A stretch of 64,000 nt of DNA, from the NCBI GenBank assembly GCA_030278955.1, contig JAOANR010000003.1, positions 36,102,054 to 36,166,053 of the forward strand, given 5' to 3'. Both the position numbers and the translations under genes were made by a program. Under the pieces are notes generated by a model. It had not been told where the DNA came from. It was given only the letters and a program-made list of their open reading frames with translations, and did not search any database. Within the stretch, counting starts at the first letter, position 1. Each line of letters opens with the position of its first letter. Shown here in pieces: positions 8,076 to 49,045 of the stretch. This stretch comes from Hygrophila difformis. Taxonomy: Eukaryota; Streptophyta; Magnoliopsida; Lamiales; Acanthaceae.

Positions 8076-8699
8076 CTAGGCTTTATCAGCATCGGTTGGT
8101 ACCAGCCTTGGAGCGAATCGGACGAGCTCTTTAAACTTCGCATAGTATTCTTGAACTGTCTGGGTGCCTTGTCGGAGATTTATGAATTCCTCATACTTAG
8201 CAGTCTTTGTACTGAGGGGATAGAACCTTTCCCTCATCATCTCCTTAAACTCTTCCCAGAAGTAGGCATGTTCACCATCAGCAAGTCCTTCTTGGTGGTT
8301 TTGCCAACATTCGTCAGCTTCTCCCCTCAAGTAGTACACAGCCACACCAACCTTCTCATTCGCGGGACACCTGATGGCAGTAAGCAGTTTGTCAAAAGTC
8401 CTCAGCCAATCCTCCAGCTTTGCGGGATCTTCCTGTCCCTCATAATGGGGCGGTTGGTAAGGGTTTACCATCGCCAGATAATTTATTCGAGCTGCTGGGG
8501 GTGGTACTGCTGCTTGAGCTCGGTTGACTTCAGCGTTTCCTAGAGCAACGAGGACTTGCTCAACTGTCCTCAACCTTTCATCAAGTGCGTTGGGAACAGG
8601 GTTAGCTTGAACTCCCGGATTCGGCGGGTTCGCATCAGCTGGAACATTAACGTTCTCATTCACTGGGATCTCAGCTCTAGGTCTCCCTCTGGGCGGCAT
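8076..8699 (-). pseudogene. A1 gag N-terminal and capsid region ending at a premature TAG
   Basis: The likely start is the ATG of MPPRGRPR (8699), which matches the gag starts of A2, B1 and B2. An ATG 12 bases upstream is less likely. Capsid motifs NYLAMVNPYQPPHYEG, a WLRTFDKLL stretch and ERFYPLSTK are visible. The frame ends after PTDADKA at a TAG, where the B2 copy has CAG (Gln). This is a single C-to-T change. The rest of gag-pol continues in the same frame from 8075. Confidence 0.85.
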
Positions 8700-9032: not shown

Positions 9033-9491
9033 CTAAAGCAAATAGTCCGGAGAGTAGCCGAGCATCCTACGGTCGGCCTCTACCTCCTCGTCGGTATCAA
9101 GAGGCAGTGGAGGGTTCTCCACAACCTCCTCGGGGTCCTCTTCTTCTTCAACGTTGATGAACTCATCGGGGTCAAACTCTTCCTCCTCTTCCATCTCTGG
9201 CTCGGGGTTAAGCTGGTTTTGCAGCCCAACAATGACCTCCTCCAACGCAAATATACGTCCCTGCAGCATATGCACGTGGTTTCGGCAATCCTCGAACTCG
9301 GCTGCAAGAGCATCGTGGCGAGCAGCCATCTGGGTACTCCTAATTGTCATAGCCTCCATCCTCTCCTCTATAGCCACAATCCTATTTCTATCGTTTGCGG
9401 CATCCCTAGAGATATGGCAAAGTTCGTGCGTGATATCCGACATGGAGCACAACAAACGCATGATGGAATCTTGTAACCTTGGGTCGGCCAT
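9033..9491 (-). CDS. A1 pre-gag ORF: acidic coiled-coil-like protein of unknown function
   Basis: 152 codons between primer site and gag, on the gag strand. It starts MADPRL, has LCSM and HEL motifs near residues 15-25, and a polar, heptad-like middle (about residues 30-90) containing HMLQGRIFALEE. Two Glu/Asp-rich blocks follow (about residues 97-125), and the conserved end is LGYSPDYLL. A2 (26471-26941) and D (17573-17971) have counterparts in the same place. The ATG is preceded by TTAG, a splice-acceptor-like context shared by all three. I recognise no known domain. The stop lies 334 bases before gag. An accessory protein, perhaps a chaperone, assembly or RNA-binding partner of gag, is possible but unproven. 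Confidence 0.75.
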   Translation of the reverse strand: MADPRLQDSIMRLLCSMSDITHELCHISRDAANDRNRIVAIEERMEAMTIRSTQMAARHDALAAEFEDCRNHVHMLQGRIFALEEVIVGLQNQLNPEPEMEEEEEFDPDEFINVEEEEDPEEVVENPPLPLDTDEEVEADRRMLGYSPDYLL

Positions 9492-9746
9492 CTAATCATG
9501 CAAATTTTTACATTAAGGGATATGTCACACATAAAAATAATTTGTTAATGCACATGCTTCCCCCCAAAAATAGTACTAAGTTTTTAAGACTTGTCGAATT
9601 TGCAAGATATTCTTTTCCATGGGTTTTAAAAATAAAATTCCCTTTTTCCATGGAAATAATACTCAAAACGCTTAAAAATAATATTGAATAAGTTGGGCCT
9701 CTATAGTGGGCCGAAAAAAATAATAGCTTTTTAAAAAAAATTTCGG

Positions 9747-9758
9747 GCTCTGATACCA
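9747..9758 (-). other. A1 primer-binding site (initiator Met-tRNA)
   Basis: On the minus strand the bases read TGGTATCAGAGC, three bases after the LTR end GGGGTGTTACA. This is the usual complement of the initiator Met-tRNA 3' end. Confidence 0.9.
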
Positions 9759-9761
9759 CTT

Positions 9762-11560: not shown

Positions 11561-11568
11561 CTGCAGTC

Positions 11569-11583
11569 CTAAGGGGGAGAGGA
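11569..11583 (+). other. A1 polypurine tract (upstream of the two candidates)
   Basis: AAGGGGGAGAGGA directly precedes TGTGACACCCC at 11584. The 5' end of A1 coincides exactly with this boundary, so it probably primed plus-strand synthesis. A second tract, AAGGAGGGTAGAC, precedes TGTAATACCC at 11721. Confidence 0.7.
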
Positions 11584-12507
11584 TGTGACACCCCGCGCAA
11601 GGTCGTCGCGAGCTGAGGTAAGAATTTTAAATTGCAAGCCTCAATAATTTATGTGCCAATTATTCTTTCCGAAGTGCGACCCAACTTCGAGGACGAAGTT
11701 GATTTCTAAGGAGGGTAGACTGTAATACCCGAGAAATCAACATCGATTATTAAATCCGAAAAATTAATTAATTGAATTAATTAATTGGATTTAACTATCG
11801 CAATCGAAATAATTCCGGGAGAGCGGAATTAAATATTTTCGGACGATAGCAACTCGAAGAGAGTTATCGGAGTATCCAACAATCGGATAATCCAAGTATG
11901 ATTTTTAAAAGATCAAAAATCATATTATTAAAAAAAAAAAAAAAGAAAGAAGGAGAAGAAAATCGCTGCCTGGGGTGGCGCGGTGGCCGCGCGGTGGCGC
12001 GCCACCAGCGCGCGGTGGCGCGCCACCACCCCAGTAGCAGCGTTTCAAAACGCTGCTACGCGTTTCTTGCATGGAGAAGCATTAATGGCGAGATTGGTTC
12101 ATGGAATTGATGCACATTCATGTCTCAGATCATTAGGGGTGTATTGGGACTCTTTTGGACGAATCTAGAAGTTTCTAGAACCCCTACATGGCTGTAAGTA
12201 TGGAGGATACATGTACTTGGGGGATAAGATGAACCATGGTGTGTTAGGTGGAATGGATAGGATTTGGGGGGTGTAATTTCGGGAGTTGATGGCCATTATG
12301 TTTTCCCTAGTTCCCAGGGCCTTCAAAGCTTCATTTGGAACTCTCAATTCAACCATTACATCAAGTAATCAGTCCCCAAAACCCCCCATACACACTAATC
12401 CGAAAATTCCATTCTTCTTGAGTGTTGGTGAGAGTTTGTGGTGATTCTTCCTTGTTCCAGAGAGTTAGGGCGAGTTCAAGCATCCTAATCTCTTCTCCTA
12501 CGTCTAG

Positions 12508-14003
12508 GTAAGGTTTCTAATCCATTTCCTTGTTCCTTACTTCGGATTCTAAGCCCTAACATCTAGTTTTTCTCCAAACACCTCAAAATAGGATTCGTTC
12601 GGTAGATCTTGGAAGTGAGAGGCTGATCCGGACGAGTTTGAGGGTTCAACCAAGGAGGATTTCGACACTACACTCTTGAGAAGTAAGTTAGTGTTGTGCA
12701 TTTCGAATTTTAGAGCTTTTGGTTGAGTATTCTTTGAGTTGTAGTTCGATTTTCATCTTGTGCCAAAACTGTCTTTTAGGGTTTCTTCCGAGTAGATTTT
12801 ATTGGTGTGCTTTTCTCGCCTAGATCCATTCGTTTTTGGAAGACCTTGTCTAAATGAAAAATGTTCCTAATACTTTAAAGATGATCCCTGTAAATTTTCA
12901 TAATTTTTGGACTTGATTTGGTCGTCGAAAATAGATCTGGTATTTTCTGCTACACATGTTGACAGATTTTAACTTCTAGCATGTTCAGTTTTGTAGTTCA
13001 TAATTCTCCTAGCTATGGTCGTTTTTAATGGTCGACTTCTTCATGAAAATTGTGCATCCATGTGTCTAGTTTACTCCTGTGAAATTTCAGAATTTTTGGA
13101 TCAACCTTCGAATTGTTATGGATTTTTAAGTAATCTGCGGTCGGATGAACAGTGATCTTTGCACTCTTTTGAAAACCAGTTTCTGTAATGAATTTTTTTG
13201 AGTGACTTAGAGTCCGAATTTGCTAAGGCCTATTTCTGAGAAAAATGTTTATTTTGATGTCTTCTAGTAGCTGTAAAATTTTCAGAATTTTCCACAAAGT
13301 TTTACTACATTTCCTAATACGATTTTGAAAACTGTTACGGTGTGGTCTTACCGGTAAAACTTGGTTTCGTACGTTTCGATGGTTATTGAGTCGATTGTTA
13401 CTCTTTTATGAAGCTTATGAATTCTGGAAATGTAAACATGAGTTGTAATGATTAAAATGTGGTTTTTGAAACTTTGTGAGTTTTGATCGAGTTAGATGCC
13501 CAATTTTAGAGGGTAAGTGCACTTGGCGTGGGCTCGTTGGGCCGCCCCCTCTTTTTGGTGGCCAAAATGGCGCCAAGGTAATATTATATTGCGTGATTGT
13601 ATGAGTCTATACTCCTAGGTGTATCCGTAGGGGTTACCTAGGGCTCCGGAGTGTGTCTGTATAGGGTCCGCTGCTCTCACATTGTGGATACCGTCGGCTT
13701 GTGGACATAAGTGCCCAAGCGGGTAATTGATCCCAAACGGCTAAGGCCCAGGATCGTTGATGCCGGCAGCTTGTGGACATAAGCGCCCAAGCGGGTAATG
13801 TTTGGATGTCCTCGATCAAAATGAACATTGGTGTGGTAAAGCGTAAAAAAAGAAATCCCCGTAAATTATTTTTACTCGTTCGTTAGATTAAATTCCCCAC
13901 TTTCCATTACTCTTCTAAATCTTTAAATTTTGTTATGCTATACATTAACTTACTCAGTACCGTTTGTACTGATAAAAATTGTTGTTTCTCTTTTTCTTCG
14001 CAG
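12508..14003 (+). other. Putative LTR intron, A1 3' LTR
   Basis: The donor is TCTAG|GTAAGG and the acceptor TTCTTCGCAG|AGTAAG after a pyrimidine tract. The stem CAGTAC/GTACTG (13955-13971) ends 32 nt before the acceptor and is followed by the A of CTGAT. Confidence 0.55.
13691..13799 (+). repeat. Two-unit minisatellite in the A1 LTR
   Basis: Period about 71 bp. Each unit carries GCTTGTGGACATAAG and CCAAGCGGGTAAT. The 5' copy is at about 10315-10440, inverted. Confidence 0.7.
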
Positions 14004-14454
14004 AGTAAGTGATGGCACGTTGGGATGGGATTCAAAAATATAAAGACTTGTCGCATTTTATCATTGTTTTAAATTTCTACACTGGACTTTGACACTGGAC
14101 TTTGGACTTTAGTTTTGGCCGTCTGTTTGGCCCACGTTTTATTTGTTTTTAGCTTCCGCACTGATTATTACTGTGATGCATGAGATACTCTGATTTTAGT
14201 TCGGGCATGATTGAATGAATTTTAAATTGTTTTGAAAAATTGATACAACTTAGCCTTAGCATTTTCCTAGATGAGCTCGACTTGGGTCGGGTCTTGTTTA
14301 GAAAAGTGTGGCGGTAATGCCCTGGCCTGGGAAATCAAATCCGGGGTGTTACAGATTTAACTTGAATTTTTGGAAGGTTATGGATACAGGAAGCCTTGGT
14401 TTTATTGAAAATATTAATATTATTAAAAATATTAAAAAAATAGCCTGAATTTTA

Positions 14455-17572: not shown

Positions 17573-17971
17573 CTAGAAGGAATATGTAGGTGCATCCTCG
17601 ATGGGATCGTCCTCGTCGCTTGACACGTCAATGGGTGCAGCAACATTGGGGTTAGGCCCCGGGTTCTGAAGGACCCCTCCATCAACTTCGTTGGCCAAGT
17701 TAGTTAACTCCCAAGCCACGTCCCCTACTTGTTCCTCCAAGTCATCACTCTTGTCTTGGAGTTGGGCCACTTGGGCTTGGAGTTGCGTGACTTGATTTTG
17801 CAGTTGGGTTATGTTGTGATGGTCTGTCTCCATAAGGTGTCCAATGTGGGCCATGTTAGCCTATAGTTGTTGTACCCGAGTTTTGAAGTAATTGACATGT
17901 TGTTGTGACTCTAGGTAGGCATTCATTAGTTTCATCATCAGATTGATCATGTTCGCGTTGGGTTCGGCCAT
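17573..17971 (-). pseudogene. D pre-gag ORF, interrupted by one TAG
   Basis: Starts MAEPNANM at 17971, directly after TTAG as in A1 and A2. An in-frame TAG is codon 37. The rest is open to 17573. The middle is a run of Gln-rich heptads (QLQNQVTQLQAQVAQL), clearly coiled-coil-like. The end is acidic (SSDEDDPIEDAP) and closes with TYSF. 132 residues plus stop counts as the same size class as the A1 and A2 proteins, although sequence identity is low. Position, start motif, coiled coil and acidic tail support homology or strong functional similarity. Confidence 0.65.
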
Positions 17972-18400
17972 CTAATGTCAACAAGGGAGGTTAAAGTTAG
18001 ACACATTTCAAGCAAAGTAAAAATATGCAGGAATTTAAATCTATATGAAATATGCATATGCAATCCCCCCAATAAAAACTAATTTAATGTGTTATAATTT
18101 AAATTTAATTCATCGATAAAAGTTGGGCCACTATATTGGGCCAAAATTTAATAATTTGGGCTAAAGCATCAAAACATGGGTATTTGGGCCAAAATGATTG
18201 GGCTTATCATAAAAAAAAATTTTGGGTCAAAGTAATTAATCTTTTGGGCTCAAAAAATTATACTAAGTAGATAGAAAATTTTGGGCTCAAATTTTGGGCT
18301 AAAAATAATAATACTAGTAGTCTTGAAAAATAAATTTAAAAATAATACTTAGTTTAAAATAATGGTTTAAAAATAATAATAGTAGTTTAAAATATTCCGG

Positions 18401-18412
18401 GCTCTGATACCA
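18401..18412 (-). other. D primer-binding site
   Basis: TGGTATCAGAGC on the minus strand, three bases after the LTR end. Confidence 0.85.
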
Positions 18413-18748
18413 ACTTGTAACACCCCGGATTTGATAACCCAGGCCGGGATGTCACCGCCACACCTCCCTAGTAAGACACGGATTCTCCGAGCTTACTAAA
18501 GAGATGCAAGGCTATAGGTATTGCAAAGAGTTTTAAAACAAGTCTGGAATTTATTTAAAAATAATAATAAGTCTCATCCACACATAATAGTGATAATAAT
18601 AAGTCGCAGCGGAAATAATAAAATGGGCCGACATGGCCAAAACTCGGGTTTTACATGCCCGATATGCAAGTATAAAAAAAAATGATAAAACAATGTTTAA
18701 TTTTTTTTCCATCCCCAAATGCATATGCTCATGCATTTTCTCCATACT

Positions 18749-20279
18749 CTGAAAAAGAGAGAAACAATAATTTTATCAGTATATAAAATACTGAGTAAGT
18801 CGATCCTAACATAGCAATACAGGGGTTTAATTAAATAAATAAATTTTATCCTAAACATGCATACAATAATTCATTTACCAATTAAAAATTAAAATTAATA
18901 ATTTAATTGTATACTTGGACACGCATTTAAATTCATAAATAATAATCTAACATGTTATAAAATTTAAGACATAAATTTAAATGCATAATTTAAAGACATG
19001 AATAAATAAATAAATACGTAAAAAGTATTAAGTCTTTTAATTTTCCCCGTTACGTCACCATTTCTCAGTATTTAGTGTAGCCGGTCATCCGGCGGCCGCA
19101 GTCGTTTCGTAAGTATCTAGTGTAGCCGGTCGTCCGGCGGCCGCAGCCGTATCTGCCATATCCAGTAACACTCCGGAGCCTCGGGAAACCCATACAGATA
19201 TTCCCGAGAGTGTAGTTCATGTATCTCATGCCGTTTTGGTGTAGTTTTACAATCAAGTATCTTGCGTCCATTATAGGCACGCCGAAAAAGGCCAGAGGGG
19301 CACCCTGCAGAGCACTCACCCTCCACCAAAGTATCTCGTAATGTTTCGATTTAGTGTAACGGGATTTTTCAGAAGTATAGATTTATCGTATTTCAAGGTT
19401 TCGACGGTTTGTTTCGAAATTTCAAAATCTATTCGATTTAAAATCGTTTGGCGTCACAGTTTACGCCTTTTTAATTTAAAAATTCATTTCAAGTCCAAAA
19501 AATCTGAAATTTGTACAGTGTAACAAAAACACCCTAACGAACAACTTTCGTGTTTTAATGATTTCGAAATAAGTTGAGGAAACATTTCAAAAATCGAGTT
19601 CATTACACAGCATATACACTGTCAGGTTTCAGTTTTACCACAGTTCCAAAAATCGACTTTTTGACATAACAAATGGACTCCAAAAATTCTGAAATTTTAT
19701 ACACACATACTGGACATGATTATCTACAACTTTCATTTAGATTGCCAAGACTGGATCGGAATAAAAATTATAGAAACATGCTCATCAAGTTCGGACATAT
19801 GCACTGTCAGTTTTTCGAAAGGAGTTTGGAACACAGTTTAGATTAGACGCGATTTGAGATAGCAAACGTTGATGAAAATCTCTAAACTTTTTACACAACA
19901 TAGACTAATGTTTTAGAATCAAAAGTCTAGTTTTGAGTTTCTTGGATCGGACTCTCGAAATATGAGTTTTAAACGGATTTCAGAAATTGTGCAAGTTGGG
20001 GTTTTTAGGTTCGATTTTTACGTTTCATTACAAGGTCACTAAATCGGACGCCCCTAAGCCACCCGTATTGATATGAAAGGCATCAAGTTACAGTGTTAGG
20101 GTGTTTTGGTTGTCCTAGGGTCGCTCGGCTCGTCCAAATTCACTACGAACGAATCTCCTTAACGCCAAGCTTCCAACTTTGGCCACAATTTCAAATCGGA
20201 AGAAGAAATCCAATGTTAGATCGAGTTTTCGGGTTCGAAAACTTTAGTGAAAACCTATGAACGACTTACCAAAGTCTGG
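18749..20279 (-). other. Putative LTR intron, D
   Basis: Minus-strand donor ACTTTG|GTAAGT and acceptor CTTTTTCAG|AGTATG. The stem CAGTAT/ATACTG (18777-18793) ends 28 nt before the acceptor and is followed by CTGAT. Confidence 0.55.
19068..19150 (-). repeat. GC-rich minisatellite in the D LTR
   Basis: Two units of about 46 bp, each with TAGTGTAGCCGGTC and CCGGCGGCCGCAG, beside the CTCCGGAG palindrome. Confidence 0.65.
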
Positions 20280-21312
20280 AGCACTAGAGACCTTGTATTC
20301 CACGCCTCCTCCGCCGATTTTCGTCGCTGGAAAGTGATCGGAATGTTCGAAGTTGGTGATTCCGGGTGTTGGAAGAACTTGGGAGAAATTGGAGAGTGTC
20401 TAGGGCTGCTAGGGTTTGGGAATTCGAGATAATGAGTCTCAAGACCCCTAGAGCCAACCATATACACCTTCCTTCATTCGGGATTGAGTTTCCAAAGTCG
20501 GGGGTCGGAAATATGGTAAGAAAACGCCATGAACGCGTGAATTGCCGCATTCTGGGGTGTCATGCGGGGTTGGCGCGCTGGAAGGCCAAACCCCGCGCGG
20601 CCAACCCGCGGCACTGGTCTGGACTGCGGTCCGGACCTGTCCGTGCGATCCGTTGGGTCTTTTCCTCATCTCTTTCGGACTTCTATCCTTCCACGTTTTC
20701 GGGCTCGATTTTTCCGGGTCATTCTCGGGTTATAATTCCTACTCTAAATATATTCCAACTTAAATTGATTTCATGTTTGAAATCTTAAGTCCGTCGGTTT
20801 TGGTTCGTCGGGTTCTAAATCGTCGTCTTTTGACTTCCGTGTATTTCCGACTTTACGGGTCCTCGGAAATAACCCTCTTTGCTCATCGGATTAAATTCTA
20901 TATTATAAAAATTACGGGTATTACAGATGGATCTTTTCTTAGTTCTAGATCGCGTTCATCTAAGCGCACGCCTAAGCATAACAAATCACGGCCTTAGTCA
21001 TTCCTAGCCTTGTACGAATTAGAAAATTTCCTTATGTGGAAACAATAAAAATCAAGTTTTTATTAAAACACTATTTATTCCAAAAATCTTGTTTGGTTTC
21101 CCAAACAACAAATCCAAAATTCGAAATTCGAGACCTTAAAAAAAAAAAATCTGGACAGACCCTGTCCGACCCAAAAAAAAAAAAAAACCTTGGCCAACGC
21201 TACACCCGGAAAAAAAAACATCTAACACTCAACCACTTATATGATTTCACGACTCCCTGTCTAAACAATCTAGCAAAATCCTTGGAATCTAATCTATGTA
21301 CGCTGTAACAGA

Positions 21313-22149
21313 ATGGCACCAAGGAGACAACCGAAAAACCAACCTGCCCCACAAACCACTAACGAGATACCACAGAACCCCACGGAGCCAGCACAATCCG
21401 TGGGAGCTCAAACCCAAGGTGCACAAGATGCCCCCGCACCGAACAACGTGAGCGACCGTCTCCGCACGATAGGGGAAGCTCTGGTCGTCTTAGGAAACAC
21501 ATTAGTCGACCAGGGGCAAGACACAAGTAATAGCAACCACAAAGATGCTGATAAGTCAGGAGGAAACCATTTTCGCAGAGACCCGAATAGACCGCCTCGA
21601 GGCAGTAAGGGGAGAAACAACGGGATAGTCTTCAACCATGGTGACTATGCGCCACCATGTCCAAAGTATGGTAAACCGCATTATGTGAGAGGATGCCCTC
21701 AGCCTGGAGCGTGCTTTCGATGCGGGCGGCAAGGTCATCGGCTGCCTGACTGCCGGACGCGAATAGAAAACATTAGCAGGAGAGAGAACGTGACCATTAA
21801 ACCCAACCAGCCGCAGAACCCGGACCGTCGAGATGACATCCATAGTCCAGTCATATCACGTTGCCCACGATGCAACCATGCGCATCTGGTGCGCCAGTGC
21901 CCGAAGCCTGGAGCAAGCTATCAATGCGGCAAGTTTGGTCACAAGGCTGGGAAATGTCAAACGCCAGAGGAGGAGATTGAGAAGAGACTAGACTTGGAAA
22001 TCCGGAACAAGGAGATCAAGAAAGAGCTGTGGGACAGTCGAATGACGACGATCAAGCTCACTTGCCCGCTCAATAAGAAGGGTGTCAAAGGTAACGATAC
22101 CCGAACCCTCTCGAGAGTAACGTATAGGCAGTTATGGGGACCTAACTGA
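21313..22149 (+). CDS. B1 gag-like protein with duplicated zinc-knuckle module and no capsid
   Basis: 278 residues. The start is the ATG after TAACAGA, as in B2 and A2. Residues 1-57 match gag N-termini (NNVSDRLRTIGEALVVLG). The capsid region present in A1 and B2 is absent. Two copies of the two-knuckle nucleocapsid module follow. Copy one starts at residue about 115 with CPKYGKPH (second Cys replaced by Tyr) and CFRCGRQGHRLPDC. Copy two starts near residue 195 with CPRCNHAHLVRQC and SYQCGKFGHKAGKC (first Cys replaced by Ser). The tail EEIEKRLDLE resembles the A1 region after the knuckles. It then runs into the 3' untranslated region with no pol. It could bind nucleic acid but not form a capsid. 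Confidence 0.8.
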   Translation: MAPRRQPKNQPAPQTTNEIPQNPTEPAQSVGAQTQGAQDAPAPNNVSDRLRTIGEALVVLGNTLVDQGQDTSNSNHKDADKSGGNHFRRDPNRPPRGSKGRNNGIVFNHGDYAPPCPKYGKPHYVRGCPQPGACFRCGRQGHRLPDCRTRIENISRRENVTIKPNQPQNPDRRDDIHSPVISRCPRCNHAHLVRQCPKPGASYQCGKFGHKAGKCQTPEEEIEKRLDLEIRNKEIKKELWDSRMTTIKLTCPLNKKGVKGNDTRTLSRVTYRQLWGPN

Positions 22150-23055: not shown

Positions 23056-24273
23056 GACCATCTTAATCAATCCTGAACACTTTCAAACCCTACGAAAGCT
23101 CTCTACATATCAAACCCTAATCCCGGAGTCGTCGGAGGCACGAAACCAAGAGGAGGAACTGTCTTGGACAAAATTTGGAGTCTTCTATCGTCGTGGTAAG
23201 ATCCGATCTATTTCTTTTTCCATTCTTGATTCGAAAATGAGTCCTAACACTATTCTTTTCTATTCTACACCCCGATTCGGATCTAGAACGAAGAACCCGA
23301 CGAATCAAGGAGATAAACGGTGGACTGGAAGCCACGCCTTCGAATCGACGAGCCGGAATGTCCATAAATCTGTAAGTTAATACTTACATGGTTTGGGAGA
23401 ATTAAAATTCACTTAATCTAAATATTTAAATCAAGAACGTAAAATCTGTCACAACGAGAACCTCTACGGCGCAGCGTTTTTGCACGATTTTTCCGAACCC
23501 TTTAAACTGTTCAAACGAGAAAACTTAAACACGAAAAACGTTCCTAAGACATAGATCTACCTTCTAAAAAAATTTCATAATTTTTCATTGTGTTTTGATA
23601 TCCGAAAACGATCGCAAACGAACCTGCCTTCGATTTAGATCTTGAAACGGTGATAGATTCTTAGTCCGAATTTGAGGTTGATTTTAACCTTAGATCTAGA
23701 CCGATTTTGTAATACCCGAGAAATCGACATGGGAGTTGTAAAATCCGAAAGTTAAGAAATTTGGATTTATTTATCGAAATCGAATTAATTCCGAGAGAAC
23801 GGAATTAAATATTTCGGATAATCGCGACTTGGGATAGATGTATCGAATTATCCCAAAAATCTCGGATAATTCATATTATGATTTTTAAGAGATTAAAAAT
23901 CATAATATTAAAAAAAAAAAAAAAAGCTGCCTGGTGGCCGCGCGGTGCGCGCCACCAGCAGCAGACCTGCTATGCAGGCGTTACAAGTGGATTCTTGCAT
24001 TGATTTTCGTTTTGCACGTCTCCAATCGATTTGAATTCAATCATCAGACATTGTGGACGTTGTGGGGGGGGGTTATGATTGGGTTGAGAAGCATTAACAC
24101 CCCACAAACTTAGTCTTTAAGCTCACACAACACACCTTGGAGGATCCTATGGAGCTATGAGAGGAGTGGGGGAAATGGATGAGGTTTGGGGGGTGTTAAT
24201 TCGGGGGTTATGGGTTAGAAATTGTTCCTTCACATTCCCACTACCCCATGGCAGCTTTTGGAGCAATTACCCC

Positions 24274-24280
24274 TATATAA
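24274..24280 (+). promoter_or_regulatory. TATA box, A2 5' LTR
   Basis: TATATAAATAGCCCC context, 157 nt before the splice-donor-like GTGTAG|GTAAGA. Probable core promoter of the element. Confidence 0.7.
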
Positions 24281-24430
24281 ATAGCCCCTACTCAGCCTCC
24301 ATTGCACTCATTTGCATCCCATCCGAAATTTGAGTTCAAGAGAGAGTAGTGAGAGTTTTGTGAGTTGTTCATCATCCTTCCAGGGAGTGTGGACGTGTTC
24401 AAGTGGTCCAAACCTTTCTCCTACGTGTAG

Positions 24431-25870
24431 GTAAGAGTTCTACTTCTTTTCCTTGGTCTTAGATTCGAATCCCTTGTCCTAGAATTGAGAATTTCCTCCG
24501 ACAACTCCATAATAGGTGCATTCGGTAGAAGTTTTGATTGTTGGGGTCGAGTTGGACAATTTCCAGGATTCCACCAAGGGGATATTCGGTTCTAAACTCA
24601 TCTCAAGTAAGTTAGTATTGTGCACGTCGATTTTTAGGAGTTTTGGTTGAGTATAACTCGAGATATAGGTTTATCTTGTCATTTGACCAAATCTGCCAAA
24701 TAGGGTTTTCCTATGACCAATTTTATTGTTCTGTGAATTCGACCATGATCCGTACAGTTTTAGGAGAACCTTCCAAAATGAAACTTGTATGCTCTCTGTA
24801 AATTGTTATAATTTTTGGACATGTTTTGGTCACCCAAATTCGATCTGGTATTTTCTGTGTATGTGTTGACAGTTTTGATGAATGTATGTAGTCAGTTTTC
24901 TTGTTCGATTCACTCTTGCCTATGATCGTTTTTAGTGCTTGAAGTCTTCATGAAACTTGTTCTAATATGTGTCTAGAACATCCCTGTAAAATTTCGTGAT
25001 TTTTGGAGCACATATGAAATTGTTATGAATTTTTGAACTCACTGTGGTCGGATTTACTGAAGCATGAGGAATTGTAATTCAATAGCTTTCTGAAATGGGA
25101 TAAAATGACCTACTTAGAGTCCGAATTTTGAGATGGCTATTTCTATGAAAAATGCTTATTTTGATGTTTTCTAGCTACTGTAATTTTTCCATAATTTTTA
25201 AAAATAATTTGTTGCATTTTTAAATGCGATTTCGAAAACTGCCACAGTGTTACTTTTAATCGGTAAAGGCTATTTTGATTATTCGATGAACTAAGAGTCG
25301 ATTGCTACTCGGTTTTGGATATGTATGAAATCTGGATATGTGGCGAATATATTGGAATGATAAAATGTGGTTTTAAAACTTTGTAAGTTTTGATCGAGTG
25401 GGATGCCCAATGTGGTGAAAATTATGTCGCCCCCTCTCTTGTAGCCAAAACGGCATTTATTTAATGTGATGTATGAGTCTATACTCCTAGATGTATCCGT
25501 ATGGGTTATCTAGGGCTCCGGAGTGTGTCTGTATAGGGTCCGCTGCATGCACTTACCTCGTGGGTACGAGTCCCAGAGGTTGATCCCAAGGGTTCGTCCC
25601 TAGGATATGTTTGAGTCCTTGTGGGTATAAAGTCCCAAAGGTTGGTCCTGTGGGTTCGTCCCTGCTAATGGGGTGTCCTCGATCATAACTAATATTGGTA
25701 AAATGTTCGTGGCATATGTGTAAGAGATTTTAAATTAATTTATTTACTCGTCTTTTAAATAAATATATTATTTTGTATATTCTCCTAAAAACTTTTAAAA
25801 TTCGTTGTGCTATATATTAACTTACGCAGTACCTTTGTACTGATAAATTGTTGTTTTATTTTCCTTTCAG
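24431..25870 (+). other. Putative LTR intron, A2 5' LTR
   Basis: Donor GTAG|GTAAGAG and acceptor TTTTCCTTTCAG, with a second AG nine bases on (TTTCGCAG, 25879). Length 1440 nt. It would remove the minisatellite and most of the long 5' leader, leaving about 120 nt of first exon. The equivalent pair in the 3' LTR is 31575-33037. Confidence 0.6.
25827..25842 (+). other. Conserved stem-loop with branch-point-like CTGAT, A2 5' LTR
   Basis: CAGTAC, loop CTTT, GTACTG, then AT. Every LTR family in the window has a stem here with different but paired bases. The 3' LTR copy is 32994-33009. Confidence 0.7.
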
Positions 25871-26214
25871 ATTTCGCAGAGTAAGCATCGCATGGAGGGA
25901 TGGGATTTCCATTTTTAAAAGAAGACTTGTCGCATTTTATTTATTTTTAATTTATGCATTGGACTTAGACTCTGGTTTTGGCCGCATGTTTTGGCCCTGT
26001 TTATTTTTGCTTCCGCACTGCTTATTATTATTATGTGTGTTATACTCTGATTAAACTTCGAGCTTATTTGAATGGTTTTTAAATATTTTTAAGTCAATGA
26101 TGCAACTTAAGCCTTATCATCCTTTTAAATAAGCTCGATTTAAATCGGGTCTTGTTTGGAAGGGTGTGGCGGTAGCGTCCCGGCCTGGGTGACCAAATCC
26201 GGGGTGTTACAAAG

Positions 26215-26226
26215 TGGTATCAGAGC
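26215..26226 (+). other. A2 primer-binding site (initiator Met-tRNA)
   Basis: TGGTATCAGAGC, three bases after the 5' LTR. Confidence 0.95.
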
Positions 26227-26470
26227 CCGAAATATTTATTTTTAAAAGCTATTATTTTTCGGCCCAATATAGAGGCCCAAAATATTAAATATTATTTTTA
26301 AGTTTTTTTTTTTTATTTCCTTGGAGAGAAAGTTTATTTTAAAACCCATGGAAAAATATATCTCAAAAATTCGACAAGTCTCAAAATATTATTTTTGGGG
26401 GTTGCATATGCATTAACATATGTGCTTGAAATGTGCAAGATATTGATTTGTTAAAAAAATTTATTTTTAG

Positions 26471-26941
26471 ATGGCCGACCCAAAGCTTTTTAACATGATG
26501 ACCGATATGCTATGTTCGATGACTAGCATCATGCATGAGTTAAGACATAGCCGTGATGAGGTTAGTGCATACAAGGACCATGTAAAAGGTATCGAGAAAG
26601 AGTTGGAGAAATTGAGGAATGCTCGACAGGAGGATTTGGGCCGCATCGCTGCTCTTGAAACTCTGTTTCATGAGGAGCAACACAACAACCACATGCTTAG
26701 GGGACGTGTGTTCACTTTGGAGCATGAGATTGTTGACCTTCAAAACCGACTCAATGCACCGGAACCTGAGGAGGAAGAGGAAGAGGAGGAGGACCCGGAC
26801 ATGTATATTGATATTGAGGGCGTGGATGAGGAGGAACCAGAGGCAGAGATAGTGGACCCACCGATACCTCTTGACTCCGATGGGGAGTATGAGCATGACA
26901 GGGCACTCCTCGGCTATTCTCCCGATTATCTACTAGATTGA
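26471..26941 (+). CDS. A2 pre-gag ORF: acidic coiled-coil-like protein of unknown function
   Basis: 156 residues, intact. It starts MADPKL directly after TTTTTAG. LCSM and HEL motifs lie at about residues 14-24. A Lys/Glu-rich helical middle (about residues 28-95) contains HMLRGRVFTLEHEIVDLQN. An uninterrupted run of Glu (about residues 99-108) and a second acidic block follow. The end is LLGYSPDYLLD. Similarity to A1 (9033-9491) is strongest at both ends and around HML(R/Q)GR(V/I)F. The stop is 231 bases before the gag ATG and in another frame, so it is not a gag leader peptide. I know no domain that fits. Conservation between diverged elements suggests a selected function. Confidence 0.8.
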   Translation: MADPKLFNMMTDMLCSMTSIMHELRHSRDEVSAYKDHVKGIEKELEKLRNARQEDLGRIAALETLFHEEQHNNHMLRGRVFTLEHEIVDLQNRLNAPEPEEEEEEEEDPDMYIDIEGVDEEEPEAEIVDPPIPLDSDGEYEHDRALLGYSPDYLLD

Positions 26942-27171
26942 TCGCATCATATCGTTGGATTAACTATTGCTTTCCGTATTTTATATTACCTTGATTTGCC
27001 TTCAATTGTAGCTGCTTTATAATTTTTCCTAAATGATCTAGTGAAGCATTTTCCTTTTCCTTTGTTGCGTCGTCTCTTTTAGAATTCTGCGTAGAGATGT
27101 TAGAACTTACTAACTTGACTACTAACCTACCGTAGAATTTGATTCTTACCCTTGCGTGCTTATCTAACAGA

Positions 27172-27333
27172 ATGCCGCCAAGGGGAAGACCGCGAAGGGA
27201 AAACCCTGCTGCTAACAACGCCAACCCTAATGTACCAGCCGAAGGTGGGGCACCACTGAACCCGGACGGGGCAAATGGGCCAGTGGGTGCAAACCCACCT
27301 AACGTAGGAGGTCAGGCGCGAGCTGTTCTTTAA
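27172..27333 (+). pseudogene. A2 gag remnant
   Basis: 53 codons from the ATG of MPPRGRPRRE, preceded by TAACAGA. Homology to gag ends near 27311, where sequence jumps to the protease (SGASCSLIS). Capsid and nucleocapsid, over 1 kb relative to A1, are deleted. The junction is out of frame with pol and the frame stops at 27331. Confidence 0.85.
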
Positions 27334-30300
27334 TATCTACAAGGATTATATCTGCCTTAGATCTACCAGCGCCTACGAACATTAACTTAGGAATTCAATT
27401 ACCATCGGGCAAGGTGATATCGTGTTTGAAACGATACGATGGAACCCCGATAGTAATCAAGAATCTAGAATTCTTTGCGAATTTAATTGAGTTTGATCTT
27501 GGGGACTTCGACGTCATCTTAGGCATGGATTTTCTGACTCAATACAAAGCTGTTATTGAGTGCCAGAAGCAGAAGATTTCCTTAGCCAAGAGTCGAGGGA
27601 GGAAGGTTGTGTATTACATGCAGCCTCGAAAGAAAAACGCTAAGGTAGTGAATGCCTTGAGGTTCTACAATCTCATACGGAAAGACTATCACTTATATGC
27701 ATGCTATGTGCATAACCTCAACGGTGAGGGAAACAAGATAGACGAGATCCCAGTCATAAATGAATATCCTGACGTGTTCCCAGAAGATATCATAGGGATG
27801 CCACCTGAGCGAGAGATTGAGTTCACGATTGATCTGGTACCTGGAACCGAACCGATATCCAAGGCACCATATCGCATGGCACCAGCAGAAATGAAAGAGC
27901 TGAAGGAACAACTAGAAGAGTTGTTATCAAAAGGTTATATTCGACCGAGTACGTCACCTTGGGGAGCGCCAGTCCTATTCGTTAAGAAGAAGGACGGTGG
28001 GCTTCGGTTATGCATAGACTACAGAGGTCTTAATCAAGTCACGATTAAGAACAAGTACCCGCTACCCAGGATCGAAGACCTTTTCGATCAACTGAGAGGA
28101 GCTTCGGTATTTTCCAAGATCGACCTGAGATCGGGATACCACCAACTGCGTATAGCCGAGAAGGATATACCGAAGACAGCGTTTCGTACGAGATATGGGC
28201 ACTACGAATTCACCGTAATGTCCTTTGGTCTCACAAACGCTCCCGCAGTATTCATGAACCTCATGAATAGTGTTTTCCGAGAGTTGCTAGATTCTTGTGT
28301 CGTCGTATTCATCGATGACATTCTAGTTTACTCAAGGGATGATGAGGAGCATACGAAACACTTGCATCAAGTGCTCGGAACTCTGAGGAGAAATCAGCTG
28401 TACGCAAAACTGTCGAAATGCGAGTTTTGGATGAAGGAAGTCGCATTCTTGGGGCACATAGTATCGGCTAAGGGAGTGTCGGTTGACCCGGCAAAAATAT
28501 CGGCAGTGATTGATTGGCCGGCACCGACGAGTCAGACAGAAGTAAGAAGCTTTCTTGGACTAGCCGGATACTACAGAAGATTCGTGAAAGATTTTTCCAA
28601 GATTGCAAGGCCAATGACCCAACTGCTGAAGAAGGGATTAAAGTTCGAATGGACTTCAGAGTGCGAAAAGTCTTTCCATGAACTCAAGAAAACACTTACA
28701 ACAGCGCCAGTCCTGATACTTCCATCAGAAACGGAAGATTTTGAAGTGTACAGTGACGCTTCAAAAGAAGGACTCGGGTGTGTACTTATGCAAAACCAGA
28801 GGGTTATTTCCTACGCATCACGACAACTCAAGCCGCATGAGGAGAATTATCCGACGCACGATCTAGAATTAGCCGCGGTGGTGTTCGCTCTCAAGATTTG
28901 GCGACACTACTTATACGGACGAACGTGCCGGATGTTCACGGATCACAAGAGCCTCAAGTACATATTTACTCAAAAGGAGTTAAATATGAGGCAGCGGAGA
29001 TGGCTTGAGTTAATCAAGGACTACGACCTGGATATAGCCTATCACGAAGGAAAAGCAAACGTCGTGGCAGACGCATTAAGCCGAAAGGCGAAACACACGA
29101 CAAATACTCTTATTTTACCGTCAGGACTATATATGGACTTAGCAAGGTTGGAAACTGAACTAGTCCATTACGGGACTGTGGTGAAAAGGGTGAATGCCGT
29201 GACGATTGAATCTACCGTATTTGACGAAATTCTGGCAGCTCAGCCGGATGATGAGAATCTCAAGAGGATCAAGGAGAAGATGGACGAGGGAAAAGCGGTA
29301 GGATTCACAATCCACGATGACGGGAGTATTCGCTTTAAAGGGAGGTGGTGTGTTCCTCACAAGTGTGAGGAATTGAAGCAAAAATTGATGGAGGAAGGCC
29401 ACAGTACGCCTTATTCAGTACACCCTGGTGGTGATAAGCTGTATAAGGATTTGAAGAAAATCTATTGGTGGCCGAGAATGAAGAAAGATGTTGCGGATTT
29501 TGTGGCTAAATGTATAACTTGCCAAAAGGTAAAGGCAGTACGGCAAAAGCCATTGGGATTGGTGAGACCGTTGGAGATCCCAAGTTGGAAATGGGATAGT
29601 ATTTCCATGGACTTTGTCTCGGGCTTACCAAGATCTCCTCGTGGGATGAACAAAATTTGGGTAATAGTTGATCGGTTAACAAAGACTGCCATCTTTATAC
29701 CAATGAAAGACAATTGGTCGATGGATCAACTAGCCAAGGCATATATCGATAATGTGGTTCGAAGGCACGGAGTGCCACATGATATCATTTCGGACCGAGA
29801 CAGTAGATTTGTCTCAAATTTTTGGACAAAATTACAAGAAGCCTTGGGAACCCAAATCAAGATGAGCACAGCTTTTCATCCGATGACCGACGGTCAGACG
29901 GAGCGGACGATACAAACACTTGAAGATATGCTTAGAGCGTGTGTACTTGAATTCAAGGGAAGTTGGGAGAACCACTTGCCGCTAATTGAATTCTCGTATA
30001 ACAACAGTTACCATGCTAGCATTGGCATGGCACCGTTCGAAGCTCTCTATGGACGCAAGTGTCGCAGTCCGATATGCTGGACAAAGGATGAAAATTCTGT
30101 AGTTGTTGGACCTCAGCTAATTGAAGATATGAGTAAACAGATCCAGATTGTCCAACAAAAGATGAAGGCCGCACAAGATCGCCAAAAGAGCTATGCCGAT
30201 ACGAGGCGACAAGAGTTGGAATTTCAAGTAGGAGACAAGGTCATGCTAAAGGTGTCACCCATGAAGGGAGTGATGCGATTTGGCAAACGAGGGAAGCTGA

Positions 30301-30656
30301 GTCCTCGTTACATTGGTCCATACGAGATTTTAGACCGTGTAGGTACCTTGGCCTATCGATTGGCTCTTCCACCGGAATTATCACGGGTGCACAACGTGTT
30401 TCATGTTTCTCAGCTGAAGAAATATGTGCACGATCCAACTCACGTCTTGCAAACTGATGTGATTGAGCTGGACGATGATCTGACATATGAGGAGTATCCG
30501 ATCGAGATACTGGACGTCAAGGAAAGAGTCACAAGAAACAAGACCGTGAGAATGGTAAAGGTACTATGGTCTAATCATGGTACCGAAGAAGCGACGTGGG
30601 AGTTGGAATCGGATATGAAGCAAAAATATCCCAACCTTTTTCAACACGACTCGTGA
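27312..30656 (+). CDS. A2 pol: truncated protease, RT, RNase H, integrase, chromodomain
   Basis: Open from the deletion junction to TGA, about 1115 codons. The protease starts at SGAS, and its catalytic Asp is lost. RT has [13 protein letters not shown] and [10 protein letters not shown]. RNase H has [10 protein letters not shown] and TDHKSLKYI. The integrase finger ends KCITCQ. The catalytic core has [15 protein letters not shown] and TDGQTERT. The GPY/F module reads [11 protein letters not shown]. The chromodomain has [14 protein letters not shown] and ATWELESDM. No internal stop or frameshift is seen in RT to chromodomain. No natural start exists because gag is gone. The first ATG in frame falls within the protease. 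RT and integrase might still act in trans if translated. Confidence 0.95.
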
Positions 30657-30849: not shown

Positions 30850-33378
30850 TGTAATACCCGAGAAATCGACATGGGAGTTGTAAAATCCGAAAGTTAAGAA
30901 ATTTGGATTTATTTATCGAAATCGAATTAATTCCGAGAGAACGGAATTAAATATTTCAGATAATCGCGACCCGGGATAGATGTATCGAATTATCCCAAAA
31001 ATCTCGGATAATTCATATTATGATTTTTAAGAGATTAAAAATCATAATATTAAAAAAAAAAAAAAAAGCTGCCTGGTGGCCGCGCGGTGCGCGCCACCAG
31101 CAGCAGACCTGCTATGCAGGCGTTACAAGTGGATTCTTGCATTGATTTTCGTTTTGCACGTCTCCAATCGATTTGAATTCAATCATCAGACATTGTGGAC
31201 GTTGTGGGGGGGGGGGGTTATGATTGGGTTGAGAAGCATTAACACCCCACAAACTTAGTCTTTAAGCTCACACAACACACCTTGGAGGATCCTATGGAGC
31301 TATGAGAGGAGTGGGGGAAATGGATGAGGTTTGGGGGTGTTAATTCGGGGGTTATGGGTTAGAAATTGTTCCTTCACATTCCCACTACCCCATGGCAGCT
31401 TTTGGAGCAATTACCCCTCTATAAATAGCCCCTACTCAGCCTCCATTGCACTCATTTGCATCCCATCCGAAATTTGAGTTCAAGAGAGAGTAGTGAGAGT
31501 TTTGTGAGTTGTTCATCATCCTTCCAGGGAGTGTGGACGTGTTCAAGTGGTCCAAACCTTTCTCCTACGTGTAGGTAAGAGTTCTACTTCTTTTCCTTGG
31601 TCTTAGATTCGAATCCCTTGTCCTAGAATTGAGAATTTCCTCCGACAACTCCATAATAGGTGCATTCGGTAGAAGTTTTGATTGTTGGGGTCGAGTTGGA
31701 CAATTTCCAGGATTCCACCAAGGGGATATTCGGTTCTAAACTCATCTCAAGTAAGTTAATATTGTGCACGTCGATTTTTAGGAGTTTTGGTTGAGTATAA
31801 CTCGAGATATAGGTTTATCTTTTCATTTGACCAAATCTGCCAAATAGGGTTTTCCTATGACCAATTTTATTGTTCTGTGAATTCGACCATGATCCGTACA
31901 TTTTTAGGAGAACCTTCCAAAATGAAACTTGTTCCTAATGTCCTAAAGATGCTCTCTGTAAATTGTTATAATTTTTGGACATGTTTTGGTCACCCAAATT
32001 CGATCTGGTATTTTCTGTGTATGTGTTGACAGTTTTGATGAATGTATGTAGTCAGTTTTCTTGTTCGATTCACTCTTGCCTATGATCGTTTTTAGTGCTT
32101 GAAGTCTTCATGAAACTTGTTCTAATATGTGTCTAGAACATCCCTGTAAAATTTCATGATTGTTGGAGCACATATGAAATTGTTATGAATTTTTGAACTC
32201 ACTGTGGTCGGATTTACTGAAGCATGAGGAATTGTAATTCAATAGCTTTCTGAAATGGGATAAAATGACCTACTTAGAGTCCGAATTTTGAGATGGCTAT
32301 TTCTATGAAAAATGCTTATTTTGATGTTTTCTAGCTACTGTAATTTTTCCAGAATTTTTAAAAATAATTTGTTGCATTTTTAAATGCGATTTCGAAAACT
32401 GCCACAGTGTTACTTTTAATCGGTAAAGGCTATTTTGATTATTCGATGAACTAAGAGTCGATTGCTACTCGGTTTTGGATATGTATGAAATCTGGATATG
32501 TGGCGAATATATTGGAATGATAAAATGTGGTTTTAAAACTTTGTAAGTTTTGATCGAGTGGGATGCCCAATGTGGTGAAAATTATGTCGCCCCCTCTCTT
32601 GTAGCCAAAACGGCATTTATTTATTGTGATGTATGAGTCTATACTCCTAGATGTATCCGTATGGGTTATCTAGGGCTCCGGAGTGTGTCTGTATAGGGTC
32701 CGCTGCATGCACTTACCTCGTGGGTACGAGTCCCAGAGGTTGATCCCAAGGGTTCGTCCCTAGGATATGTTTGAGTCCTTGTGGGTATAAAGTCCCAAAG
32801 GTTGGTCCTGTGGGTTCGTCCCTAGGATATGCTAATGGGGTGTCCTCGATCATAACTAACATTGGTAAAATGTTCGTGGCATATGTGTAAGAGATTTTAA
32901 ATTAATTTATTTACTCGTCTTTTAAATAAATATATTATTTTGTATATTCTCCTAAAAACTTTTAAAATTCGTTGTCCTATATATTAACTTACGCAGTACC
33001 TTTGTACTGATAAATTGTTGTTTTATTTTCCTTTCAGATTTCGCAGAGTAAGCATCGCATGGAGGGATGGGATTTCCATTTTTAAAAGAAGACTTGTCGC
33101 ATTTTATTTATTTTTAATTTATGCATTGGACTTAGACTCTGGTTTTGGCCGCATGTTTTGGCCCTGTTTATTTTTGCTTCCGCACTGCTTATTATTATTA
33201 TGTGTGTTATACTCTGATTAAACTTCGGGCTTATTTGAATGGTTTTTAAATATTTTTAAGTCAATGATGCAACTTAAGCCTTATCATCCTTTTAAATAAG
33301 CTCGATTTAAATCGGGTCTTGTTTGGAAGGGTGTGGCGGTAGCGTCCCGGCCTGGGTGACCAAATCCGGGGTGTTACA
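30850..33378 (+). repeat. A2 3' LTR (2529 bp)
   Basis: Copy of the 5' LTR with TATA box at 31420, donor 31575, hairpin 32994-33009 and acceptor 33037. It ends GGGGTGTTACA and GATTT follows. Confidence 0.95.
31420..31427 (+). promoter_or_regulatory. TATA box, A2 3' LTR
   Basis: TATAAATA in the same context as 24274. One base change upstream alters TATATAA to CTATAAA. Confidence 0.6.
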
Positions 33379-43974: not shown

Positions 43975-44331
43975 TGTAACACCCCGGTTTTTGGTCACCC
44001 AGGTCGGGATGTCACCGCCACACCTCCCTAGCAAGACACGGTTTCTCCGAGCTTGCTAAAGGGATGCAAGGCTATGGTTTTTCAGAATTTAAAACATTCA
44101 AACAGCTAATTCATATACAAATTAAAAATAGTAGATTAAAGTTGCAGCGGAAAATAATCTTTACATATGTATAATGCAGCGGAATTTAAATGTGGGGCCG
44201 ACATGGCCAAAAGATGGGTTAGACAGGCCCGTTCATGCAATTCATACTAAGACTAGAGTAATAAAATAATATTTCCCCGAGTATCCCATGCATGCATATG
44301 ATGATGCATATCCTTCATGCTCTGTAGGAAA

Positions 44332-46122: not shown

Positions 46123-46265
46123 CCCAACGATCGAAGACTCCCAATTCTCGTCCAAATCAGTCCCGTTGTTCGGTTTTGTGCCTCCGACGAATTCCGGATC
46201 TAGGGTTTTGTGTATAGAGAGTATCGTAGGGTTTTTGAAAAATGTTCGGGGCTTCCAAGAGGTGT

Positions 46266-47093: not shown

Positions 47094-48287
47094 CTACCTA
47101 TTATTCTCAAAAGGTTCGGGTTTTGGGTCTTTATTCTGAGGGTATCGGTGCCCTTGGTTGTTGCCATTTTGACCGTCTAGGTTCCGTGGCTGGTCAGGTC
47201 CAGCGGCCAGGTCCTCTCTCTTGGTGATATTCTTAATATGGGTTCGGCACTCTTTCATCCGATGTCCACGTCGACCACACCGGAAGCAGGTGTCGGGTTG
47301 AGGGCATCCTCTCACCAGATGAGGTTGGTTACACTTTGGGCATCGGGGTACGTAGCCTTCACGGTTGAAAATCCTTCTATTGTTGCCTTCATCGTCGCCT
47401 AGGGCTAGCTCATTTGGTCCTTCACGATAATTATTTCTACCCAAGTCAATATCAGTTCTGCGGTCCTTATCTCTTTTTCCTTGTCCATGGGGACCTTGGC
47501 CAGTCTCACGTTTCACCTTACGCTTCAGTCCTTGATCTCGTGCAACCGCTACCGCACGATCATAAACAACTTGTAGGTCGGGGTAGTGCACCCCTGTGAT
47601 CACCTCGCGTACTGCCAGGTTCAGTCCCATCTCGAATTTTTGAGCCTTCTCCGCATCTGTGGGTACTAATCTTGGTGCGAACCTCACCAGCTCCTTGAAT
47701 CGAGTGTAGTACTCTTGCACTGTCTGGCCCCCTTGTTTCAGCGACAGAAATTCTTCGTACATCGCTGCTTTGGTACTCAGGGGATATAATCTATTCCTGA
47801 GCATCTCCATCATTTCCGCCCACGATTAGGGCTCATCATTTTCTTGCAGTTTCGCTTGAGTCGCTTGCCACCAGTCGTCCGCTTCGCCTCCCAAGTAGTA
47901 CGAAGCGACGTGTACTCTCTCTCCTTCCGGACACTTGACCGCCCGCAGAAACTTGTCAAAAGTCCGGATCCATTCCTCCAGTTTTGCTGGATCCTCCTCA
48001 CCAGCATAGTGGGGTGGCTGGTAAGGATTCACCATTGCCAGATAGTTGGGACGAGCTTGGGGCGGAGGTACCGCCGCAGCTTGACCCTGATTGACTTGCG
48101 CGTTCCCGAGCGCAATCAAAACCTCTTCTATCGTCCGAAGACGATCGCCCACATTGTTCGGTGCGGGGGCGTCCTGCGCACCTTGAGGTTGTTCCTCTAC
48201 AGGTTGAGCGGGTTCAGTGTCATTTGGGGGCACTTCAGTAGTAGTTTCGGGAGCAGGTTGGTTCCTTGATCTACCTCGTGGTGCCAT
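47094..48287 (-). pseudogene. B2 gag with one in-frame stop, no pol
   Basis: Starts MAPRGRSRNQ at 48287 after TAACAGA. The N-terminal part has NNVGDRLRTIEEVL. The capsid part has NYLAMVNPYQPPHYAG, a WIRTFDKFLRAV stretch and RLYPLSTKA, then [18 protein letters not shown]. The nucleocapsid has CPKCNQPHLVRGC and CFRCGRRGHRMKEC. An in-frame TAA follows ENDEP in the capsid (near 47826); otherwise the frame is open to 47094. About 397 codons in all. It ends NKDPKPEPFENNR, directly before the 3' untranslated region. Apart from the stop it is a complete gag, unlike B1. Confidence 0.85.
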
Positions 48288-49030: not shown

Positions 49031-49042
49031 GCTCTGATACCA
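49031..49042 (-). other. B2 primer-binding site
   Basis: TGGTATCAGAGC on the minus strand, three bases after the LTR end at 49046. Confidence 0.9.
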
Positions 49043-49045
49043 CTT

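Follow-up and report, generated by a model that had tools for sequence, protein, structure and literature searches.

A survey of extra ORFs reportedly appeared in Genetica in 2011. For Tekay elements, 5′ extra ORFs have been published in sunflower (Tekay group 2) and in grasses (RIRE3, RIRE8A/B, Retrosat-2, FRetro3, maize Tekay and sorghum Sb7) (PMC11728184); the view taken in a preliminary description of the locus reported here, that other lineages are the best-known carriers of upstream ORFs, is therefore out of date. The sunflower group 2 ORF encodes 402 aa and is present in 500 of 523 copies; the same paper states that the sunflower and grass 5′aORF/eORF-5′F proteins have no amino-acid similarity (PMC11728184). 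A plant-wide survey of LTR elements named such eORFs by position and orientation and counted those of at least 250 codons (PMC6317226). The ORFs described below are extra ORFs by the same concept of position and orientation; having 132–156 codons, they fall outside that survey because of its cut-off.

For chromoviruses of Beta vulgaris, a single frame holding both gag and pol has been described, and the length of the UTRs varies (PMC3605345). A 2025 review describes plant LTR elements as generally free of introns, with exceptions, and spliced RNAs are known for Ogre, EVADE and BARE (PMC12786077; for EVADE and BARE also PMC3735527). Long-read work in sunflower reports splicing in other elements (PMC7730604); the available text of the sunflower long-read papers does not mention Tekay splicing (PMC7730604, PMC9784723). 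Our searches of one open-access library turned up no chromovirus in which an LTR donor is described as spliced to acceptors of gag or of an extra ORF.

The caulimovirus VAP is a coiled-coil protein whose C-terminus binds nucleic acid. It sits on the particle surface (PMC5670102), its coiled coil is named in the title of a reference cited in this literature (PMC4498817/PMC5670102), and splicing of CaMV 35S RNA was hypothesised to enhance expression of VAP and capsid protein (PMC4498817). In Caenorhabditis elegans, the LTR element Cer1 encodes CERV, a protein translated from a spliced mRNA, whose ATG is preceded by an acceptor consensus; export of the genomic RNA depends on this protein (PMC10309623).

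The window (the whole stretch of 64 000 nt from Hygrophila difformis that was analysed) contains four related elements, designated A1, A2, D and B. Element A1, on the forward strand, has its 5′ LTR at 23708..26211 and its 3′ LTR at 30850..33378 (98.4% identity in the LTR pair comparison, with 14 mismatches in 2530 aligned columns), a TATA box TATATAAATA at 24274..24283 (LTR position 567) and a primer binding site TGGTATCAGAGC at 26215..26226. Its extra ORF, located at 26471..26941, is uninterrupted and has 156 codons; the product of 156 aa has a predicted helix at residues 4–94 and an acidic tail, and ends in LGYSPDYLLD. The gag ATG is at 27172. Most of gag is deleted in the window copy, which retains a remnant at 27172..27333; in 23 of the 30 fetched sister copies gag is open to the end of the stretch. 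The pol frame (27414..30656) encodes the end of PR, followed by RT, RH, IN and a chromodomain.

Both A1 and A2 have the pol domain order PR-RT-RH-IN. The end of the A1 pol matches chromodomain family PF00385 (E 1.2e-4; 22.4 bits, below the curated cut-off of 25.1), and the chromodomain half of A2 matches the same family with 17.0 bits (E 0.0055). With a chromodomain after the integrase and this order of pol, A1 and A2 are chromoviruses (Ty3/gypsy). We provisionally take the elements to be of the Tekay type, a label that comes from the preliminary description and from the long LTRs, the chromodomain and the primer site. Like the Tekay 5′aORFs, the extra ORF lies in sense orientation between primer site and gag, is kept among copies, has no known domain, and its product combines predicted helices with disorder. 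Unlike the sunflower protein (402 aa, 15.9% proline, predicted nuclear localisation), with which it was compared by description only, the product here is short (132–156 aa) and strongly acidic, with one long predicted helix.

The A2 extra ORF (9033..9491, reverse strand, ATG at 9491) has 152 codons and encodes 152 aa. Its product is 42% identical to that of A1 over 155 columns (BLASTP E 4e-30), and all the motifs previously listed for this pair were recovered, namely MADP(K/R)L, LCSM, HEL, HML(R/Q)GR(V/I)F and LGYSPDYLL. Over the portions compared, gag and pol of A1 and A2 show 87% identity. On the same strand of A2 are the primer binding site (9747..9758) and gag, from its start to the first stop (8076..8699, 207 codons); the 3′ LTR (11584..14354) is on the forward strand. 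The element is better read as a forward-strand chromovirus at 3182–14354 with an inverted interior (5139–10488): the LTR part at 3182–5139 matches 11584–13552 and the LTR end, inverted at 10487–9762, matches 13628–14353, each with 99.3% identity. The inversion turned the LTR end, primer site, extra ORF, gag and most of pol; the integrase end and chromodomain (10493–11560) were not moved, and the LTR has lost ∼75 bases where it was broken.

Element D is a truncated copy on the reverse strand, with a 5′ LTR at 18416..20925 (approximate boundaries) and a primer binding site at 18401..18412. Its extra ORF (17573..17971, ATG at 17971) has 132 codons in the family; in the window copy it is interrupted by an in-frame TAG at codon 37. 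The preliminary description had three elements carrying the ORF upstream of gag, and in the window this holds for A1 and A2, in which the ORF is open, but not for D. A genome search with D scored 40 of 2380 candidates, and 30 loci were fetched; 19 of these 30 keep the 132-codon ORF intact, starting at the same ATG.

The ORF starts of A1, A2 and D have TTAG/ATGGCCGA in common. The leader motifs TTGCATATGCAT and GCTTGAAAT are similar between A and D, and the heptads and acidic end are common to the A and D proteins. To this extent D, described earlier as strongly diverged, does keep the architecture, but profile comparison by HHalign did not show A–D homology (probability 9.5% local, 5.8% global). 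A common origin of the A and D extra ORFs is likely, though not proven, because they occupy the same place and share the start and the similar leader motifs.

In three D copies (L033, L044 and L057), the part of the leader that separates the extra ORF from gag includes a telomere-like sequence (CCCTAAACCC.. GACCCTAGGGT); in the leader alignment the rows of three of five sequences were empty, the exact primer-site string being absent from them. For L057 and L033, synonymous sites of gag are saturated while the extra ORFs are only dS 0.45 apart, a difference suggesting that the leader and the extra ORF travel together, as one module, from one gag lineage to another. Among A1 copies, L069 and L072 encode the same extra-ORF protein as the window A1 and have very different LTRs; L013 and L022, again with the same extra-ORF protein, differ by 29% in the LTR end. 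This contrast suggests exchange of LTR modules or rearrangement.

Element B (43974–51242, reverse strand) has a primer binding site at 49031..49042 and a gag ATG at 48285..48287 (ATG at 48287). Its leader of ∼750 bases between primer site and gag ATG contains no such extra ORF. Its direct repeats lie 5071 bases apart, and the space between them holds gag but leaves little for pol; possibly, B is non-autonomous and is served in trans. Next to the D LTR, a forward-strand ORF at 21313–22149 opens with a further gag-like start (ATGGCACC..), which follows TGTAACAG/A; this ORF has no Pfam match. Two further adjacent ORFs on the forward strand (1303–1911 and 1914–2318; 202 and 134 aa) likewise have no match in Pfam.

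Selection on the extra ORF was assessed in D, in A1 and between A1 and A2. The D codon test used 24 of the 30 loci, with L035, L039, L050, L051, L056 and L060 dropped for differences in length or frame. The mean dN/dS was 0.18 over the 24 copies and 0.17 for pairs with dS > 0.3; the three closest pairs gave 1.7, as expected of recent neutral change. Variants present in at least two of the 24 copies comprised 65 synonymous and 39 non-synonymous changes. Singletons comprised 29 synonymous and 87 non-synonymous changes, a neutral ratio given the expected N/S of 2.6–3.8 at kappa 5–1, and the contrast between shared variants and singletons was significant (Fisher P 2e-8).

A maximum likelihood codon model for the 19 of these 24 D copies without stops (one of which, L052, has lost the ATG) gave an omega of 0.246 at kappa 1 and 0.357 at kappa 4.07, values biased slightly low because copies with stops were left out. 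Log likelihood was −1982.5 as compared with −2017.2 for omega fixed at 1 with the same kappa, a cost of 34.8 log units by which omega of 1 is rejected. The comparison with gag was confined to the 8 of 30 loci at which the gag frame runs uninterrupted from its first codon to the stretch end; six of them had a comparable extra ORF. Of 14 pairs, 13 had an ORF omega of 0.14–0.23, and the remaining one, a young pair, had 0.46; gag omega was 0.09–0.31 where synonymous sites were unsaturated (eight loci). The D ORF is thus constrained about as strongly as gag. The D pattern is that of a gene selected during retrotransposition and free to decay after insertion.

For A1, a search of the 915 Mb assembly gave 3694 candidates, of which 150 were scored, in a list ranked by protein. 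Their extra-ORF products are 94–100% identical to that of the window copy; 46 are identical over the full length, and six copies have a stop. The 30 best copies (L001–L030) encode one identical protein from 26 different DNA sequences that are at most 11 differences apart; these copies were never used alone for dN/dS. Adding 40 copies hand-picked from ranks 47–150 gave a set of 70, in which shared variants were 24 synonymous to 9 non-synonymous and singletons 40 to 44, counts that retain part of the bias of a list ranked by protein. Among the 40 copies not chosen for identity, shared variants were 15 synonymous to 9 non-synonymous.

Between A1 and A2, pN of the extra ORF is 0.34 and pS 0.77. 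With synonymous sites near or beyond saturation, dN is 0.45 in the ORF, 0.077 in gag and 0.074 in pol; the ORF is constrained, yet its protein has changed about six times as much as gag or pol. Neutral signs (dN/dS near 1, random stops), which would speak against a gene, fit the youngest changes but not the changes inherited via source copies. In the copies that propagate, the ORF is open and under purifying selection. The codon tests in D, in A1 (a biased sample) and between A1 and A2 support the proposal, made in the preliminary description, of an accessory gene under selection, and the extra ORF is almost certainly a real selected gene of a group of chromoviruses.

The product has a pI of 4.2–4.5 and a net charge of about −30 in A1, about −28 in A2 and −13 in D. 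An AlphaFold model built from the A1–A2 pair (two sequences) shows one helix spanning residues 4–94, a tail that is acidic and disordered, and a second, short helix at 138–146; the mean pLDDT is 80, with 87–97 by block up to residue 90. In A1, A2 and one D copy, hydrophobic residues, with Ala counted among them, occupy 79–85% of heptad positions a and d, and for none of the three was the heptad score matched in 2000 shuffles. Since shuffling does not reproduce this hydrophobicity, the product is predicted to be an oligomeric coiled coil with ∼90 helical residues per chain and a flexible acidic tail, which in the A proteins ends in the conserved short peptide LGYSPDYLL.

Database searches gave no relative of the protein. 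No Pfam family scored above the cut-off for the extra-ORF proteins; generic coiled coils, such as the CENP-F leucine zipper, fell below it and were not taken as homology. Foldseek found nothing below E 4 against PDB and viral models, and the PDB sequence matches look like generic coiled coils. P0001 had no match at E ≤ 10 in a protein collection that may hold few plant proteins, and P0002 had no homologue among plasmid records. No caulimovirus protein family was among all 21 Pfam rows for P0001, both rows for P0002, the best 25 of 90 for L033 or the best 25 of 75 for L044; the solved VAP was absent from the PDB match lists of the extra-ORF proteins.

Candidate splice signals were found on both sides of the primer site. 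Transcription starts were placed tentatively by means of TATA boxes, of which A2 showed none and D a weak one. The A1 LTR has a candidate 5′ splice site TAG/GTAAG(A) at 24431..24435 (forward strand), ∼125 bases after the inferred start, and GTAAG occupies the same column in all seven aligned A sequences, the strongly diverged L069 and L072 included. A second candidate, CAA/GTAAGT at 24607..24612 (forward strand; position 900), lies in a block (24607–24639; GTAAGTTAGTATTGTGCACGTCGATTTTTAGG) that six fetched A copies with otherwise different LTRs have in common; this block could act as a further donor or as some other RNA signal. The A2 LTR has both sites in the same context, the first as CTAG/GTAAG at 12508..12512 on the forward strand in the 3′ LTR. 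For D, the candidate donor is TTG/GTAAG(T) at 20265..20269 (reverse strand). The D alignment is poor here, and donors were sought by BLAST and motif search: GTAAG occurred in similar context in three of seven fetched stretches, and the four stretches with no recognisable donor may have missed the place.

In A1, D and B, the inferred transcript starts with an ATG-free run of 405, 347 and 292 nt, respectively, and in B, too, GTAAG lies inside it. Given the density of ATGs, the chance of such a run is ∼5e-5 in A1 and 0.0015 in D; in D the depletion is not unique, because an ATG-free run of 367 nt, longer than the first, occurs elsewhere. Between the inferred start and the extra ORF there are 53 ATGs in A1 and 46 in D.

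Candidate acceptors lie at the start codons. An AG stands directly before the extra-ORF ATG in A1 (26469..26470, forward strand), A2 (9492..9493, reverse strand) and D (17972..17973, reverse strand), and this placement is found in 38 of 40 A1 copies (the remaining two have no AG there) and at all 29 aligned D loci. One base before the gag ATG, an AG (27169..27170 in A1, forward strand) is present in 30 of 30 A1 copies and at 21 of the 22 D loci with an identified gag start. Upstream of the D extra-ORF acceptor, CTAAC occurs at a distance of 23–29 bases, and by eye each of the 29 rows has at least one CTAAC; the sequence TCTAACTCTAACC before the D ORF ATG agrees with the consensus for plant branch points. 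A combined criterion (an AG within two bases of the ATG plus a branch-point-like word upstream), which was chosen with the sites already in view, selects seven of the eight extra-ORF and gag starts as compared with 101 of 2329 ATGs of the window. The D gag start (L033) is the one not selected, and the ORF starts of A1 and A2 pass narrowly, with TTAAC 57–58 bases upstream. Since element B, which has no extra ORF, retains GTAAG in the LTR and AACAG/A just before gag, splice signals at gag may be a general feature, with the extra ORF added in some families; alternatively, B may be a derivative that has lost it.

Read together, these signals suggest the following expression scheme. The LTR promoter would produce a transcript whose first 290–405 bases are ATG-free and contain a 5′ splice site. 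Joining of this donor to the AG at the ORF ATG would yield an mRNA with the accessory gene behind its first ATG; joining to the AG before gag would yield the gag-pol mRNA; and the unspliced RNA, which keeps the primer site, would serve as the genome. One donor with two acceptors is the simplest reading, as it would take the upstream ATGs and the primer site out of both mRNAs. We lean slightly towards the view that the splicing layout is used as described. The fuller statement, that the chromoviruses considered here use one LTR donor and two start-codon acceptors to make separate accessory and gag-pol mRNAs and keep unspliced RNA for replication, is a realistic possibility that we hold with some doubt. 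As in BARE and EVADE, a plant LTR element would then splice to a separate translated RNA; unlike here, those are Ty1/copia elements in which the splice yields a short Gag RNA and no accessory protein (PMC12786077, PMC3735527).

Translation might instead proceed with no splicing at all, the extra ORF being read from full-length RNA and gag reached by re-initiation, as in the polycistronic translation of caulimoviruses. Between the stop of the A1 ORF and the gag ATG we see by eye two ATGs, each with a short frame, so few that re-initiation at gag is conceivable; on the other hand, scanning from the cap would rarely reach the extra ORF because of the 53 and 46 ATGs that precede it in A1 and D, and the AG beside each start codon is left unexplained. 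We consider translation of this kind unlikely.

As to the role of the protein, the RNP assembly or nuclear import suggested in the preliminary description received no direct support from an acidic product with no basic cluster visible by eye, neither a nuclear localisation nor an RNA-binding stretch, and no Pfam match above the cut-off. One parallel is VAP (ORF III), likewise a small protein encoded upstream of the capsid gene in a plant reverse-transcribing element (PMC4498817, PMC5670102). Position upstream of the capsid gene and, by prediction, the coiled coil agree with VAP; the acidic tail, the lack of a sequence or fold match and the setting in an LTR element rather than an episomal virus do not. 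Membership of the caulimovirus VAP family is not claimed, as there is no family match and the tail is different. By analogy with VAP, the protein could be an oligomeric adaptor that docks, through its coiled coil or its C-terminal peptide, on Gag particles or another partner. An adaptor of Gag or of the particle is the role that we tentatively favour, while rating it as no better than a modest possibility.

A regulator comparable to Rev or CERV, made from a spliced mRNA and helping unspliced genomic RNA to leave the nucleus, has a lower probability. The inferred layout (LTR donor, two acceptors, primer site within the intron) does create an export problem, because the intron holds the primer site and only unspliced RNA could be copied. 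CERV is the precedent: it too is an LTR-element accessory protein with an acceptor consensus before the ATG and a predicted coiled-coil part, and it is required for genomic RNA export (PMC10309623). CERV, for its part, has several exons and a peptide sequence in common with GAG, and has been shown to be nuclear. The strongly negative net charge and the lack of a basic stretch by eye stand against an RNA-binding regulator, and so does element B, which has a donor and a gag acceptor without the ORF, though help in trans is possible.

About equally improbable is a silencing suppressor or chromatin-facing factor whose acidic coiled coil would bind a host protein. The fast A1–A2 change of the protein relative to gag (dN 0.45 versus 0.08) would suit a host-facing role, and for the Tekay 5′ ORFs the sunflower paper proposes modulation of silencing or effects on insertion preference (PMC11728184). 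Within D, however, the constraint equals that of gag, and no domain above the cut-off or fold match points to such a function. That there is no gene at all, the ORF being open by descent alone in a young amplified leader, is very improbable: the A1 window copy is indeed young by its LTRs, D singletons look neutral and the three closest D pairs have high dN/dS, but shared variants are biased to synonymous changes in D and A1, omega of 1 is rejected in D, and the frame is kept in two families 42% identical, so that the data contradict this reading.

An accessory gene expressed by splicing and acting as an adaptor is, taken as a whole, the best explanation that we can offer, and one that we regard as on balance probable. 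While 5′ extra ORFs of Tekay elements were already known from grasses and sunflower, the form found here is a short, selected ORF for a predicted acidic coiled coil, and the layout of candidate splice signals is new: a GTAAG donor in the ATG-free start of the transcript with AG acceptors at the extra ORF and at gag. A family with at least 150 near-identical copies in the genome, together with a concrete expression hypothesis, makes the role of the gene testable. If true, the layout would explain how a gene behind ∼50 upstream ATGs is translated, and plant chromoviruses would share with retroviruses, caulimoviruses and Cer1 a strategy of subgenomic mRNAs; it would also suggest seeking similar ORFs, below the usual length cut-off, in other plant genomes.
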